Shown here in pieces: positions 24,930-32,310 of a stretch of 64,000 bases of DNA. The DNA comes from an uncultured Bacteroidales bacterium. Its GTDB lineage: Bacteria > Bacteroidota > Bacteroidia > Bacteroidales > Paludibacteraceae. The notes beneath the pieces were generated by a model. It had not been told where the DNA came from and searched no databases. It saw nothing but the letters and a program-made list of their open reading frames with translations. The position numbers and the translations under genes were made by a program. Within the stretch, counting starts at the first letter, position 1, and each line of letters begins with the position of its first letter. The stretch spans positions 90,937 through 154,936 of the forward strand of contig CACZOA010000009.1 in the NCBI GenBank assembly GCA_902782665.1. The letters run 5' to 3'.

Positions 24930-25538
24930 ATGATTTGGGATGTTCTTTCTCCTCTTTACGACTTTTTTGAAACAGTCTACAACGGCAAGTGCTTCAAGGG
25001 CATTGCGGAGGAAATAAAAAAGTATGTCAATAAAGACGACGTGGTGCTTGAATGCGCTTGCGGCACTGGTCTGCTCACTCTGCCAATGGCTCAGATATGC
25101 AAAGAGATCGTAGCTACTGACTATTCCGATGGGATGCTGAGACAGACTCAGAAGAAGGTCAGCGGATACAATAATGTCAGGATTCAAAAAGCAAGTATTC
25201 TGGAAATTCCATTCGACGACAACAAATTCGACGTGGTTGTGGCAGCCAATGTGATCCATTTGTTGGAAGACCCGGGCAAAGCTCTCGCTGAAATGAAACG
25301 GGTATGCAAACCTGGTGGCAAACTGATTATTCCTACTTATATTAATAAGGAAAGCAAGAATTCAATGGTGGCAGCCAAACTGCTTTCTATGTTTGGCGTG
25401 GATTTCAAACGCCAATTCAGTTTAGCGTCGTACAAGGAGTTTTTCGTTGATCATCACGTCGACGTGAAGGAATACCGCATCGTCGACGGAAGGATGCCAT
25501 GTGCGTTTGCGATAAGCCCAAGCCCCCTAACCCCCTAA
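24930..25538 (+). CDS. SAM-dependent class I methyltransferase, 3' end altered by repeat
   Basis: 202 aa. Motif I is VLECACGTGLLTLPMA (SAM binding), with motif II VATDYSDGML and post-II VVVAANVIHLLEDPGKALAE. This is a UbiE/Methyltransf_11-type small-molecule methyltransferase; the substrate is unknown. The last residues, PSPLTP and the stop, are encoded by the first copy of the C-tract repeat at 25522-25548. The natural C-terminus after GRMPCAFAI therefore appears replaced by repeat sequence. The core fold is complete, so activity is likely kept. It is divergent from the metal-efflux operon, but no functional link is evident. Confidence 0.85.
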   Translation: MIWDVLSPLYDFFETVYNGKCFKGIAEEIKKYVNKDDVVLECACGTGLLTLPMAQICKEIVATDYSDGMLRQTQKKVSGYNNVRIQKASILEIPFDDNKFDVVVAANVIHLLEDPGKALAEMKRVCKPGGKLIIPTYINKESKNSMVAAKLLSMFGVDFKRQFSLASYKEFFVDHHVDVKEYRIVDGRMPCAFAISPSPLTP

Positions 25539-25578
25539 AGGGGGAAATGCGGCCCCCTAACCCCCTAAAGGGGGAAAT
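25522..25578 (+). repeat. Tandem pair of 27-bp C-tract palindromic repeats (copies A, B)
   Basis: Two identical 27-bp units, 25522-25548 and 25552-25578, separated by 3 bases. Each has GCCCCCTAA followed by the hairpin CCCCCTAAAGGGGG and then AAAT. Copy A encodes the end of the methyltransferase; copy B ends 33 bases before the DUF559 nuclease start. Near-copies in opposite orientation lie at 26044-26101. The complementary strand has pairs of G5 tracts separated by TTA, so four G5 tracts across the pair could form a quadruplex. Confidence 0.9.
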
Positions 25579-25599
25579 TGTAACCTAAAATATATTTTA

Positions 25600-25607
25600 T
25601 AAATTTG
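25600..25607 (+). promoter_or_regulatory. -7 box TAAATTTG abutting nuclease start
   Basis: Matches TAnnTTTG, with only 4 bases to the ATG at 25612. If used, transcription would start at or near the A of the ATG, giving a leaderless mRNA. Confidence 0.45.
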
Positions 25608-25611
25608 CGAT

Positions 25612-25977
25612 ATGAATAGTGCAGATCCTGTATATTACGAAGAATTGAAATTGCGAGCAAGACATAATCGCAATAATCCAACAGAAGCAGAATCTTATTT
25701 ATGGGAGATGCTTCGTGATAAAAAAATGGACGGATACAAATTCCGTCGTCAGCATATTATCGGCAAATATATTGTCGATTTCATTTGCTTAAGTAAATCT
25801 CTTATTGTTGAGGTCGACGGTGGGTATCATGATTCACCAGACCAACAATATGATGATTCAGTCCGTACCGCTTTCCTTGAAGGACATGGTTATAAAGTCA
25901 TAAGATTTAGAAATGAGGATGTTATTGCAAACACAGATTTTGTCCTCCAATCAATAAAGACAAATCTCTTCAAATAA
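25612..25977 (+). CDS. DUF559 (Vsr-like) endonuclease-domain protein
   Basis: 121 aa protein of the DUF559 group, related to very-short-patch-repair and PD-(D/E)XK nucleases. RARHNRNNPTEAESYLWEML, FRRQHIIGKYIVDFICLS, LIVEVDGGYHD and GYKVIRFRNEDV are the family hallmarks; the Asp in YIVDF and Glu in VEVDGG are the likely metal-binding residues. The protein is full length for the family. Its cellular role is not established. It sits alone between two inverted pairs of G/C-tract repeats, an arrangement that recalls repeat-associated transposases with their REP elements; that comparison is inference. Confidence 0.88.
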   Translation: MNSADPVYYEELKLRARHNRNNPTEAESYLWEMLRDKKMDGYKFRRQHIIGKYIVDFICLSKSLIVEVDGGYHDSPDQQYDDSVRTAFLEGHGYKVIRFRNEDVIANTDFVLQSIKTNLFK

Positions 25978-25984
25978 ATTTTTA

Positions 25985-25992
25985 TAATTTTG
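25985..25992 (+). promoter_or_regulatory. -7 box TAATTTTG of antiporter gene
   Basis: Matches TAnnTTTG, 20 bases before the ATG at 26013. It falls within the repeat-flanked segment, so the present promoter of the antiporter may have come with the inserted unit. Confidence 0.5.
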
Positions 25993-26012
25993 CACAAATA
26001 ATATCCTACAAA

Positions 26013-27356
26013 ATGGAAGAAACAAAAAATAATAATAGATCACAACTCCCCCTTCAGGGGGCTGGGGGGCTACAACTTCCCCCTTCAGGGGGCAAGGGGG
26101 CTGCTTTGGCTCTTTCTCCCCTACTCCTCTTTTTTATATGTTATGTCGGAGGCAGTATCGCGCTGCATGATTTCTACGCCATCCCAATTATCGTGGCATT
26201 CGTGGTGACATGTCTTTACGCCCTCTTTATTTTCCGCAACGACACTTTCAACAACCGTGTGATGGCATTCGGACGTGGGGCCGGCAACGAGAATATCATG
26301 TATATGGTGTTGATATTCATTCTTGCCGGTGGTTTCGCTTCCCTTGCCAAAAGTATAGGTGCAGTCGACGCTACTGTCAACATGTGTCTTCATTTTCTCC
26401 CCACTGCACTTTTGCTTCCTGGTCTGTTCCTCGCAACATGTCTGGTGTCGATGAGTATCGGAACATCAGTAGGTTCGATCGCAGCATTGGTGCCTCTGGC
26501 AGCTGGACTTGCAGCACAGACAGGAAACAGTGTGGCACTCTACACTGCCTGCATCGTCGGCGGAGCATTCTTCGGAGATAATCTTTCCTTCATCAGCGAC
26601 ACAACCATCGTCGCCACTCGCACACAAGGGATTGCCATGCATGAGAAATTCAAGGCCAATATAAGGATTGTCCTTCCCGCCGCATTGATTGCGATGATGG
26701 TATACGTGGTGATAGGATTCGGTTCGAATGCCAACCACACAGTTGAAGCCCCTGATTTCATACGTGTTCTGCCATACATAGTAGTGTTGGTGACCGCCAT
26801 TTGCGGAATCAATGTCATTATCGTGCTGACAATAGGAATCATCCTTTGCACTATCCTTGCCCTTTGCCTAGACGGTGCAGCATTCACCTCTATCCTGCAA
26901 TCTATCGACGGTGGTGTGAAAGGAATGAGTGAACTGATTATTGTGACATTGCTTGCAGGCGGACTGATGGAACTGATCCGCATCAACGGAGGTATAGACA
27001 TTCTGATGAATGCCATAAAGAGCAAAGTCACCAAACGTCGTGGTGCGGAATTGAGCATCGGAGCACTCGTGACAGCAGCCGATTTCTGTACTGCCAACAA
27101 CACAATCGCAATCCTTACTGTAAGCAGTCTGGCGAAAGAGATTGCCGAGCGATTCAACATTCCCCCTCGTCGAGTGGCAAGTCTGCTCGATACATGGAGC
27201 TGCATCGCACAATCGATCATTCCGTATGGAGCGCAACTCCTCATCGCCTCCGGGCTTGCGGCTATCGCGCCGACCGAGATCATAAGCCATCTCGTCTACC
27301 CATATATATTAGCAGTCATTACGCTTGGTGTAAGTGTGGTGAAGGGGAAAGATTAA
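26013..27356 (+). CDS. NhaC-family Na+/H+ antiporter with repeat-encoded N-terminus
   Basis: 447 aa polytopic inner-membrane antiporter with about 11 hydrophobic segments. GGAFFGDNLSFISDTTIVATRTQG is the conserved NhaC-type segment, and AADFCTANNTIAIL and DTWSCIAQSIIPYG lie in the later core. NhaC-type proteins exchange Na+ (or organic acids) for H+. Residues about 10-32 (SQLPLQGAGGLQLPPSGGKG) are read from two inverted copies of the C-tract repeat. Normal family members begin a few residues before the LALSPLLLFF helix. The extension is cytoplasmic or periplasmic tail sequence and probably tolerated. No other in-frame ATG precedes the first helix. Confidence 0.88.
   Translation: MEETKNNNRSQLPLQGAGGLQLPPSGGKGAALALSPLLLFFICYVGGSIALHDFYAIPIIVAFVVTCLYALFIFRNDTFNNRVMAFGRGAGNENIMYMVLIFILAGGFASLAKSIGAVDATVNMCLHFLPTALLLPGLFLATCLVSMSIGTSVGSIAALVPLAAGLAAQTGNSVALYTACIVGGAFFGDNLSFISDTTIVATRTQGIAMHEKFKANIRIVLPAALIAMMVYVVIGFGSNANHTVEAPDFIRVLPYIVVLVTAICGINVIIVLTIGIILCTILALCLDGAAFTSILQSIDGGVKGMSELIIVTLLAGGLMELIRINGGIDILMNAIKSKVTKRRGAELSIGALVTAADFCTANNTIAILTVSSLAKEIAERFNIPPRRVASLLDTWSCIAQSIIPYGAQLLIASGLAAIAPTEIISHLVYPYILAVITLGVSVVKGKD
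26044..26101 (-). repeat. Inverted pair of C-tract repeats inside antiporter gene (copies C, D)
   Basis: Two units, about 26044-26070 and 26074-26101, each with C5TTCAG5 followed by CT or CA and a further G tract. They are near-copies of the 25522-25578 units in reverse orientation, with a few substitutions (TTCA for TTTA). Both lie within the coding frame of the antiporter N-terminus. Confidence 0.85.
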
Positions 27357-27362
27357 AGGCCA

Positions 27363-27477
27363 ATCTCCAAAAAAGTGTCGAGTAACTGCATTTCTATCTC
27401 CAAAAAAGTGTAATATCTGCATGAATTTATCTCCAAAAAAGTGTAGTGTTATTGTGTTTTTATCTCCAAAAAAGTGT
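27363..27477 (+). repeat. Four-copy tandem array, exact 33-bp period
   Basis: The 16-mer ATCTCCAAAAAAGTGT occurs at 27363-27378, 27396-27411, 27429-27444 and 27462-27477, each exactly 33 bases apart. The 17-base intervals vary but keep traces of a TAATnnTG(CAT) segment. Only after the last copy is a perfect -7 box (TAATTTTG) formed. The array starts 7 bases after the antiporter stop and ends 25 bases before the AAA ATPase start. It looks like a promoter module duplicated in tandem. Confidence 0.92.
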
Positions 27478-27502: not shown

Positions 27503-28807
27503 ATGAAACGAGAGATATATAACGATTTATTACATTGGAAAAACAATGAAGATAGAAAGCCTTTGATAATTCAAGGAGCTCGACAGGTTGGCAAAACATG
27601 GATGATGAAAGAATTTGGAGCACAGGAATACAAACATACTATTTATATCAACTGTGACGACGAACCTTTAATGCAAAATGTATTTGAAAAGGATTATGAT
27701 ATGGAACGCATCCTTTTTGAAATACAAGTCATAAGTGGAATCAAGCCCGAACCTGAAAAAACGCTTATTATTTTAGACGAAATACAAGAAGTACCAAGAG
27801 GAATACATGCCTTAAAATATTTTTGTGAAAAGGCTCGTGAATACCACATAATGGTGGCAGGTTCTTTTTTAGGAATTGCACTACAAGACGGGACGTCTTT
27901 CCCTGTTGGGAAAGTAGATTTACTATATATGTATCCGATGAATTTTTCCGAATTCATCAATGAAATCAATCCAACTCTTGGTGATTTATTAAAAAGCCAG
28001 AGATGGGACAGTATTGCTACTTTTCATGATAAATTAGTCGAGATTCTACGACTCTATTATTTTTTAGGAGGAATGCCAGAAGTAGTGCAATCATATATAA
28101 ATAATAAAGATTTGAGTAAAGTTCGACAAAAACAGAAAAATATTCTTGCCACATACAGAAACGATTTTTCCAAACATAGCGGCAACAACGTAGCTATCAA
28201 GATAAGGCAAACATTTGACTCAATTCCATCACAATTGGCTAAAGAAAACAAAAAGTTTATCTTTAACGTCATAAAGAAAGGTGCTAGGGCAGCAGAGTAT
28301 GAATTAGCCATACAATGGTTGATAGATTGTGGAATTGTATACAAAGTCAACAGAATCAGAGAATTCCGTCAGCCCTTGAAATTCTATGAAGATCTTTCAG
28401 CATTCAAGTTATTTCTTTTGGATTGCGGATTATTCGGATGTATGAACGAAACGGCTCCTGAAGACGTATTATTAAGCAATAACGCATTTGTAGAATACAA
28501 AGGTGCTTTTACCGAAATCTTTGTGATGCAACAATTAGTGTCTGAAGGTTACACACCATACTATTGGAGTAAAGAACAATCTGATGGAGAATTGGATTTT
28601 ATAATACAAATGGATGGGGGAATAGTCCCAATTGAAGTGAAAGCCGAAGAAAATGTCAGAGCAAAATCACTACATCAATTTATTAAAGAACATCCAGAAT
28701 TTAAAGGTCTTAGATTTTCCATGAAAGGATTCCAAGAACAAGATTGGATGACAAACATTCCTTTGTACGCCATCAACCAATATATCAGAAGAAAGAACAA
28801 GAATTGA
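27503..28807 (+). CDS. AAA ATPase with DUF4143 domain
   Basis: 434 aa. The N-terminal AAA (AAA_14-type) ATPase has Walker A GARQVGKT at 25-32, Walker B LIILDEIQ with Asp92-Glu93, and a sensor Ser121 in VAGSFLG. A helical linker follows. The C-terminal DUF4143 region includes a PD-(D/E)XK-like motif, GELDFIIQMDGGIVPIEVKA, at about 364-383. All motifs are intact. Family members are common accessory genes in Bacteroidetes, and their function is not established. The gene has a four-copy 33-bp promoter array in front and a hairpin after it, so it is a single-gene unit. A decayed relative lies at 15082-16173. Confidence 0.9.
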   Translation: MKREIYNDLLHWKNNEDRKPLIIQGARQVGKTWMMKEFGAQEYKHTIYINCDDEPLMQNVFEKDYDMERILFEIQVISGIKPEPEKTLIILDEIQEVPRGIHALKYFCEKAREYHIMVAGSFLGIALQDGTSFPVGKVDLLYMYPMNFSEFINEINPTLGDLLKSQRWDSIATFHDKLVEILRLYYFLGGMPEVVQSYINNKDLSKVRQKQKNILATYRNDFSKHSGNNVAIKIRQTFDSIPSQLAKENKKFIFNVIKKGARAAEYELAIQWLIDCGIVYKVNRIREFRQPLKFYEDLSAFKLFLLDCGLFGCMNETAPEDVLLSNNAFVEYKGAFTEIFVMQQLVSEGYTPYYWSKEQSDGELDFIIQMDGGIVPIEVKAEENVRAKSLHQFIKEHPEFKGLRFSMKGFQEQDWMTNIPLYAINQYIRRKNKN

Positions 28808-31479: not shown

Positions 31480-31626
31480 AATAAAATTTTACTGTCCGTT
31501 TAAAAAAACGTCCCTCACATCAACTGCAAAAGTTAACTAACAAGACAAAAGTATGAATTTTTTTCATTAGCAAACAAGAATCAAATAAAAAAGCAGCAGA
31601 AGCACTGCCTCTACTGCTTTCCTTAT

Positions 31627-32180
31627 TTACTTTGGATCTAGCAAATGTCCATCATCATAACGTTCATCAAAAAAATTTCCTTTCTTTGCATATAAGCATA
31701 CGATAACACGTATGTACTTGTCGTTTATGTTATATGCCTTGACAAGCCAACTCTGATTATCTTTACAAAAAAGAACGCCTTATCTTTTCCTACTGTCCTT
31801 GGACCATCTAAAACTGTCTTAGATGAACTCATTCCTCCAATATTCAACCAATACAGACGCATCCCAGTATTCGTACTCACATTTTTTGCCTGTGCCGCAT
31901 AATCATTGGTTATCTGATTGATGTCTTCCTGAACGTTTGTTGATGCATACCACATTTCAAAACCATATCTATTGTCAATCACTGTGTCCTGTGGTCTCTC
32001 TATAGGAGTCATTGATGCTGTCCTACACTCACTGATACCAATGGAATCTTGCATAGACTTACTCATTGATGCATATAAGTCCTTTACTTCATCGTCATCA
32101 TCCTTATCACATGAGGATGCTAAAATAGACATACTGATAACCGAAATTATCAATAAAATAGTCTTAAAACTTTTTTTCAT
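31627..32180 (-). pseudogene. Frameshifted hypothetical lipoprotein
   Basis: The 5' part encodes a lipoprotein: signal peptide ending LASSC (Cys24), an Asp-rich linker, then a soluble domain. In the assembled sequence it stops at 31725 after KAFFFVKIIRVGLSRHIT. In the other frame after a run of six A (plus strand 31767-31772), translation continues sensibly as CKDNQSWLVKAYNIN...YIRVIVCLYAKKGNFFDERY, ending at 31627. One inserted T would restore a protein of about 185 residues. Either a real frameshift or a homopolymer error. The family is not recognised. The downstream reading frame is too protein-like to be chance. Confidence 0.75.
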
Positions 32181-32310
32181 ATTTTTGCTTTTTGTTGATT
32201 GGTTTTCGGCAAAAATAATGTTTTCAATGGCTCGCCAACTATTCGCTATATACTATATACTATATTTTAATATTTTTGTAACAACTATATCTCTCTTCCT
32301 CTGCCGACGT

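Follow-up and report, generated by a model that had tools for sequence, protein, structure and literature searches.

A unit of approximately 580 bp (25522-26102) was characterized in a 64-kb stretch of DNA from an uncultured Bacteroidales bacterium (contig CACZOA010000009.1; the whole stretch is called the window below). It consists of two palindromic repeat units, a small nuclease gene of the DUF559 family and two inverted near-copies of the repeat, and is favored here, with some reservation, as a minimal mobile element in which a homing-type nuclease is bracketed by inverted palindromes. The repeats probably serve as the ends of the element and also as the substrate of the nuclease. The analysis established the architecture and the fold of the nuclease, the association of DUF559 genes with such repeats across genomes, the in-frame copies within conserved genes, the turnover at a single orthologous site and, for one genus, an island in which divergence is low. 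As to the way of movement, we infer cutting by DUF559 at the repeats and repair-based copying of the element.

A wider proposal, offered tentatively, is that DUF559 genes and palindromes may form one ancient and widespread class of minimal mobile elements, parallel to the REPIN-RAYT systems (hairpin-forming doublets of repetitive extragenic palindromic (REP) sequences and REP-associated tyrosine transposases). In this class, a homing-type PD-(D/E)XK nuclease would cut at the repeat hairpins; the class would live in E. coli K-12 as ycjD and scattered repeats, and would write its repeats in frame into the sequence of essential proteins, leucyl-tRNA synthetase (LeuRS) among them. To our knowledge, some short palindromic repeat families have no known mover. 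With a nuclease-repeat pairing in several phyla, another large group of repeats would gain a mover, the repeat-coded peptides of conserved proteins would find an explanation, and DUF559, which is listed in Pfam as being of 'unknown function', would acquire a function. A literature search, whose coverage excluded most subscription papers, returned no report linking DUF559 to flanking palindromes.

Structure of the Element and Its Nuclease

The two left repeat units (25522-25548 and 25552-25578, both on the plus strand) are identical and have the plan C5-TAA-C5-TAAA-G5 plus a tail (GCCCCCTAACCCCCTAAAGGGGGAAAT), in which a C5 tract is followed by a C5/G5 hairpin. A 5' spacer (25579-25611, without strand) separates them from the DUF559 gene (25612-25977, plus strand), which encodes a single-domain protein of 121 amino acids and is followed by a 3' spacer (25978-26044, without strand). 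The right units (approximately 26045-26071 and 26076-26102, minus strand, with ends placed by eye) are near-copies in inverted orientation. The arrangement described in the earlier note, two 27-bp units before the gene and two inverted near-copies after it, was thus confirmed by coordinates and sequence. When the hairpin core was searched with at most one mismatch, eight matches (four sites on both strands) were obtained in the 64 kb, compared with 0.01 expected from shuffled sequences. Single-strand folding of three repeat stretches of the window was slightly better than that of shuffles (z -1.2).

Both junctions lie in coding DNA, and the view that the end of a methyltransferase and the start region of an NhaC antiporter are read from repeat sequence also held. 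The C-terminus of the Methyltransf_11-type S-adenosylmethionine-dependent methyltransferase open reading frame (ORF; 24930-25538, plus strand) is encoded by the repeat, and the frame is terminated by a TAA within the first left unit. The ORF of the NhaC-like Na+/H+ antiporter (26013-27356, plus strand) starts as listed at an ATG within the 3' spacer (26013), and both right units stand in frame in its N-terminal part. Of the seven loci at the methyltransferase-NhaC site, the window's own included, six keep the NhaC frame open across the right units; the seventh (L002) was unparsed. The repeat-coded stretch of 22 amino acids sits after a candidate NhaC N-terminus (MEETKNNNR..LALSPLLLF). Because NhaC relatives, whose DNA was translated by eye, show a short variable start followed by AL-x-PL, the right repeat pair may be an in-frame insert in NhaC.

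The protein was assigned to DUF559 (PF04480) over residues 11-119 with an E value of 5.9e-38 and 129.5 bits, against a curated cut-off of 20.6. An alignment of 27 diverse DUF559 sequences revealed 18 invariant residues, including R46, Q47, D56, E67, D69, G70 and H73. A confident AlphaFold model (mean pLDDT 89.6) indicated a Vsr/I-Bth0305I-like fold: the nearest solved structure was 3hrl (Foldseek E 3.4e-8; 42% identity; sequence E 8.7e-23), followed by the domain of the homing endonuclease I-Bth0305I (Foldseek E 1.1e-4; TM-score 0.62/0.76), while PvuRts1I/AbaSI, mitoribosomal proteins and Vsr (E 0.29) were all weaker than E 0.001. Among known defence proteins there was no full-length match, the single match, to DpdF, covering 55 residues (25.1 bits). 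A plasmid search with the 580-bp element gave zero matches; a phage search gave matches in three of 50,697 records, one of them named homing endonuclease, and matches in PHROGs were weak throughout.

Association of DUF559 Genes with Flanking Repeats

DUF559 matches were found in 222 of 395 sampled Bacteroidota genomes, with up to 10 per genome. Their flanks were analyzed at 89 loci of the phylum, namely 29 delivered with the first scan (besides the window's) and 60 taken in list order. Some genomes contribute several loci (genome G174 five), and the sample omits three places at contig ends as well as lower-scoring list entries, so that weaker family members are unsampled. The 300-bp flanks were compared after orientation by the gene strand, and control positions with identical spacing were taken from within these loci; the score threshold of 30 was chosen after a first look at the data in an unoriented version. 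Inverted repeats reached this threshold at 54/89 DUF559 loci and 1/169 control positions, and direct repeats at 56/89 and 3/169, respectively; with either orientation accepted, 73/89 loci and 4/169 controls scored. A second sample, obtained by scanning GTDB with the window protein, comprised 44 named loci, five of which are members of the window's genus and several of which share a lineage. Their titles include Bacteroidota, Acidobacteriota, Aminicenantes, Nitrospinota, Nitrospirae, Melainabacteria, Moranbacteria, Saccharibacteria, several proteobacteria and others. At 37 of these 44 loci both flanks carried matching repeats, compared with 3 of 153 control positions. The link between DUF559 and such repeats that had been proposed for related genomes therefore held in both samples.

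Further analysis indicated that the sequence of the repeats varies by lineage and that the layout around DUF559 is similar. A fixed 23-bp pattern was dropped as a general marker because the repeat sequence changes between lineages, and the sequence-free score with same-locus controls was used instead. At the genome level, the CCCTCTCC hairpin was present in 77 of 163 genomes with a strong DUF559 match (E below 1e-10, a cut chosen by the analyst) and in 25 of 232 genomes without one (odds ratio 7.4, p 5e-16, uncorrected for relatedness). A C-tract always facing the gene, which was expected from the window and G174, fails as a general rule across loci. At four loci (L057, L063, L065 and L119), DUF559 genes lie between long direct, rather than inverted, repeats, and in L063 the units recur approximately every 154 bp on both sides of the gene.

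G/C-rich hairpins are common components of transcription terminators, and several of the hairpins are intergenic, as would be expected if they acted mainly as terminators or mRNA-stability elements of small genes. Such an explanation is scarcely credible, since hairpins also occur upstream of the gene and in frame within coding regions, an Rfam search gave zero matches at E up to 1, and control positions rarely show hairpins: pyrimidine-rich hairpins were found on the left side of 65, on the right side of 65 and on both sides of 54 of the 89 loci, the corresponding numbers for the 169 controls being 7, 5 and 0.

In-Frame Copies and Turnover at an Orthologous Site

The reading of the unit as an insertion gained support from in-frame copies in LeuRS and MetH and from turnover at one orthologous site. 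In LeuRS, the in-frame DUF559 is located at the beginning of the editing domain or immediately ahead of it. When a class sample was queried with a DUF559-bearing LeuRS, 148 genomes matched; the 30 best loci were taken, 23 of which could be parsed at the hinge; the hinge gap measured 158-189 amino acids with DUF559 in 4 of these 23 genes and 19-46 amino acids in the other 19. Two further loci (L043 and L067) were chosen for carrying DUF559. G/C-rich hairpins with a stem of at least 7 edge the LeuRS insert on both sides in L067, L144 and L165 and on one side in L137 and L163; L043 has no edging hairpin at this stem length, and a repeat-like stretch is visible on its right. DUF559 was also found in frame inside MetH. 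DUF559 also lies in two long frames that, judged by eye only, resemble a type III methylase in L040 and an HsdR-like protein in L048.

Turnover was observed in a second genus, that of G174, which has five elements (arm identity within the element 100, 98, 98, 91 and 73%) and 39 hairpin matches. With a 73-base query that was taken from G174 and lay mostly within a flanking gene, one and the same intergenic site was matched in 20 of 41 congeneric genomes. DUF559 is present between the flanking genes in nine of them, in two sequence lineages, and absent in 11. Two of the loci without DUF559 (L255 and L260) hold a gene-less inverted pair of the G174-type repeat, and a third locus without it (L257) carries a strong inverted pair of a different family, CATGCTGAGCGCAGCCGAAGCATCTC, at approximately 1620-1760 of the plus-oriented locus.

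Distribution in the Window's Genus

The genome of the window (114 contigs totaling 3.33 Mb, completeness 87.7%) contains a single DUF559 gene, and the unit pattern was matched four times, always at this gene. Among the nine genomes of the genus, eight carry the DUF559 gene, each as a single copy, and eight have the repeat pattern. The ninth (G006, 91% complete) lacks the gene, the repeat and an NhaC match. Based on search expressions, seven of the eight genes are at the methyltransferase-NhaC site with one or two units on each side; the gene of G005 is at a different place with different repeats nearby. With one copy in 8/9 genomes and the same site in 7/8, the element is not visibly multiplying in the window's genus. 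Counted from the listed positions, 21 of 35 pattern matches in the genus are within approximately 200 bp of DUF559, and the other 14 are away from it (eight on one contig of G003, four in G005, one each in G004 and G007). The matches in G003 include eight same-strand units over 32 kb (L011, G003:C18:103677-136041), away from the DUF559 gene of this genome.

The single copy at a fixed site in most of the genus would also suit a domesticated host nuclease that polices palindromes or mismatches, with the repeats gathering as regulatory or substrate sites and the pair not being mobile. Purifying selection (dN/dS 0.07-0.08 against G007, where synonymous divergence (dS) is above 1 and near saturation) is consistent with such a role, and the available part of one study proposes a function in mismatch repair for the Caulobacter DUF559 protein VsrA (PMC12907096). 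Domestication is nevertheless an unlikely account, in view of the up to 10 DUF559 matches per genome elsewhere, the in-frame copies in LeuRS and MetH, the two DUF559 lineages at one orthologous site and the repeats on both sides of most loci.

Matches to the Y1 tyrosine transposase family (Y1_Tnp) were found in all nine genus genomes (37 in total), and the repeats are REP-like and form inverted pairs as REPINs do in the part of PMC3116915 available. The repeats could thus be REPs of the ordinary kind that Y1 tyrosine transposases of the RAYT family mobilize in trans, with DUF559 as cargo or a chance neighbor. This is very improbable: of the Y1_Tnp matches, only two are on the same contig as repeat matches, approximately 67 and 178 kb off (the contigs being fragments), and within the reach of the contigs none is close to the repeats, whereas 21/35 repeat matches flank DUF559; G006 has Y1_Tnp yet no repeat; and the units lack a conserved GTAG or CGTC end tag. 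The suggestion of a REP/RAYT-like layout with the nuclease as the sole protein was borne out by gene-less inverted pairs, solo copies and the position of Y1_Tnp away from the repeats.

Identity Island in the Window's Genus

The region between the repeats (25579-26046) is at least 97.0% identical in all 15 pairs among six congeners, compared with 82-98% for the methyltransferase (24930-25400) and 86-97% for NhaC in the same genomes. The 5' spacer is 100% identical in four of six congeners compared with the window (G002, G008, G004 and G001), 91% in G003 and 64% in G007. The latter is evenly diverged across the locus at approximately 80% identity, with a dS of 1.2-1.4 for DUF559, methyltransferase and NhaC alike. 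In the other five, the dS of DUF559 (0-0.028) is below that of both flanking genes (methyltransferase 0.08-0.64, NhaC 0.15-0.72); the respective values are 0.028, 0.54 and 0.72 against G002 and 0.000, 0.52 and 0.66 against G001. When overlapping comparison windows elsewhere were considered, none of 855 was as similar as the element for G002 and 2.1% of 792 for G001. The element was therefore exchanged recently with the G001 and G002 lineages; with regard to the other congeners, this wider comparison says little.

The island would be explicable by homing and equally by ordinary recombination. That ordinary homologous recombination between congeners produced it, with the gene as a passive passenger, is rather doubtful but has some basis in the data, since the locus is a mosaic in which windows near 31.5-32.0 kb almost equal the element in minimum identity, and the second genus lacks the island. 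Against it stand the minimum identity of the element across four congeners, which is the highest found (0.983 vs at most 0.979 in 476 other windows), and the location of the identity fall-off near the repeats. Recombination would account for the island, not for the association or the insertions.

Proposed Movement of the Element and Contrary Evidence

If the unit is a mobile element, DUF559 would make a nick or cut in the DNA, either at a repeat hairpin or cruciform or next to one. Recombination repair would then use an element-bearing copy as the template, with pairing through the repeats and flanks, and would copy the gene and repeats into the cut site. The possible outcomes are allelic homing at an existing site and ectopic insertion at solo repeats. 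Gene-less inverted pairs and solo repeats may be non-autonomous or decayed copies, and insertions in coding DNA may survive as additional protein segments because the units are readable in frame.

A number of observations weigh against a mobile nuclease element. No cleavage, excision or insertion was observed in this computational analysis, and neither a clean empty site nor a target duplication was found, the latter not having been sought systematically. The single copy and shared site in most of the window's genus also count here. No repeat pair at the threshold was present at 16/89 phylum loci and 7/44 named loci, and the orientation of the tracts is inconsistent (right, left or unclear in 46, 33 and 13 cases on the left side and in 33, 37 and 19 on the right side). 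The hairpin pattern occurs, in up to 54 copies, in the 25/232 genomes without a strong DUF559 match, five of which have at least 12 copies. The match between arms within an element exceeded the best match between elements in 22 of 31 elements (12 genomes; p 0.01), and arms more alike within than between elements were rejected as a rule at 22/31 only. Against G004, G003 and G008 the island does not stand out (42, 45 and 62% of windows equally similar); an identity of 97% in four congeners is also reached by 8 of 476 windows elsewhere, and recombination has made the locus a mosaic with other stretches near identical in some pairs. In the second genus no identity island was found: among six carriers, DUF559 is 74-88% identical, below flanking gene A in 15/15 pairs and below flanking gene B in 14/15. 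A homing island was accordingly rejected as a general feature.

The comparison with empty sites that the earlier note had advised for defining the ends of the element turned up no clean one. At the order level, 77 of 149 genomes matched NhaC, and for the 15 best besides the window's own, the upstream 1.5 kb was inspected; the exact motif GTGLLT of the window methyltransferase was in 0/15 of these stretches, so no empty site was found among them. G006, the genus member without the element, also lacks an NhaC match.

Repeats Around E. coli ycjD

E. coli YcjD is annotated as DUF559, and a YcjD profile is described as having detected Vsr in the accessible part of PMC1189080. Downstream of ycjD, stretches of similar repeat plan were noticed by eye. 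When a 61-base query with one such stretch was searched at a loose limit of E up to 0.1, 5375 of 5426 E. coli genomes gave matches, at a median of 19 places each. The query for the ycjD region was covered to at least 80% in 3362 of 5426 genomes. In the one strain without this region that was examined, the eef operon was in place, and an eef operon at the place of the ycjD region is reported in the portion of PMC12817139 available. At tkt-ypfG, one allele has a repeat unit and others have REP-type sequence (six sequences aligned), so that a target duplication is unreadable there. As a clean empty-site case, E. coli ycjD therefore failed, the alternatives being the eef operon and the REP-type sequence at tkt-ypfG.

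Comparison with Known Systems

In layout the element resembles REPIN-RAYT, and in chemistry perhaps a homing endonuclease, but it fails defining features of both. REPIN-RAYT systems (REPtrons) likewise have a small gene between short palindromes; further common traits are inverted pairs that lack a gene, copies scattered through some genomes and lineage-specific repeats. However, the DUF559 enzyme is of the PD-(D/E)XK/Vsr-like type, whereas RAYT is a Y1 HUH tyrosine transposase; the repeats of the window adjoin no Y1 transposase, DUF559 being the sole protein between them, and the units share no GTAG/CGTC end tag (one GTAG occurs, between the right units only). Membership in this class thus failed for want of a Y1 transposase and a tag. 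Copy number also differs, with only four pattern matches in the window's genome, all at the gene, and more in G174 and E. coli.

The catalytic fold is shared with the EDxHD homing endonuclease I-Bth0305I, the second-best solved match after 3hrl. A cyanobacterial DUF559 gene has already been assigned to the EDxHD family, as far as the available text of PMC9403480 goes, so the link between DUF559 and this homing family is not new here. EDxHD homing endonucleases have an extended DNA-binding region beside the catalytic domain in the part of PMC3943268 available, unlike the window protein, whose 121 amino acids are occupied by DUF559 over residues 11-119; the homing class failed for this reason. 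No intron or intein was seen, and DUF559 is palindrome-flanked and at many unrelated sites.

Vsr belongs to the same superfamily as the DUF559 proteins YcjD and VsrA, but its structural match is weak and no DNA cytosine methyltransferase adjoins the window gene: none was among the 11 matches to Pfam or among the 25 listed of the 54 matches to NCBIfam, and the neighbor is a Methyltransf_11 protein. Rickettsia palindromic elements, described in the available part of PMC3733652 as palindromic repeats inserted in frame in genes, are similar in their in-frame palindromic inserts and differ in that the DUF559 system has a nuclease gene between the repeats. Miniature inverted-repeat transposable elements also form short gene-less inverted-repeat pairs, but the DUF559 unit has no transposase gene, and no target duplication was found (no systematic search).

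Other Features of the Window

The stretch at 31513-32059, whose minimum identity in four congeners is almost equal to that of the DUF559 element, overlaps a minus-strand ORF (31728-32252) that looks by eye like a small lipoprotein. Moreover, four direct copies of CTCCAAAAAAGTGT with a spacing of exactly 33 bp, the sole copies in the window, occupy 27365-27477 and directly precede an AAA_14/DUF4143 ATPase gene (27503-28807).

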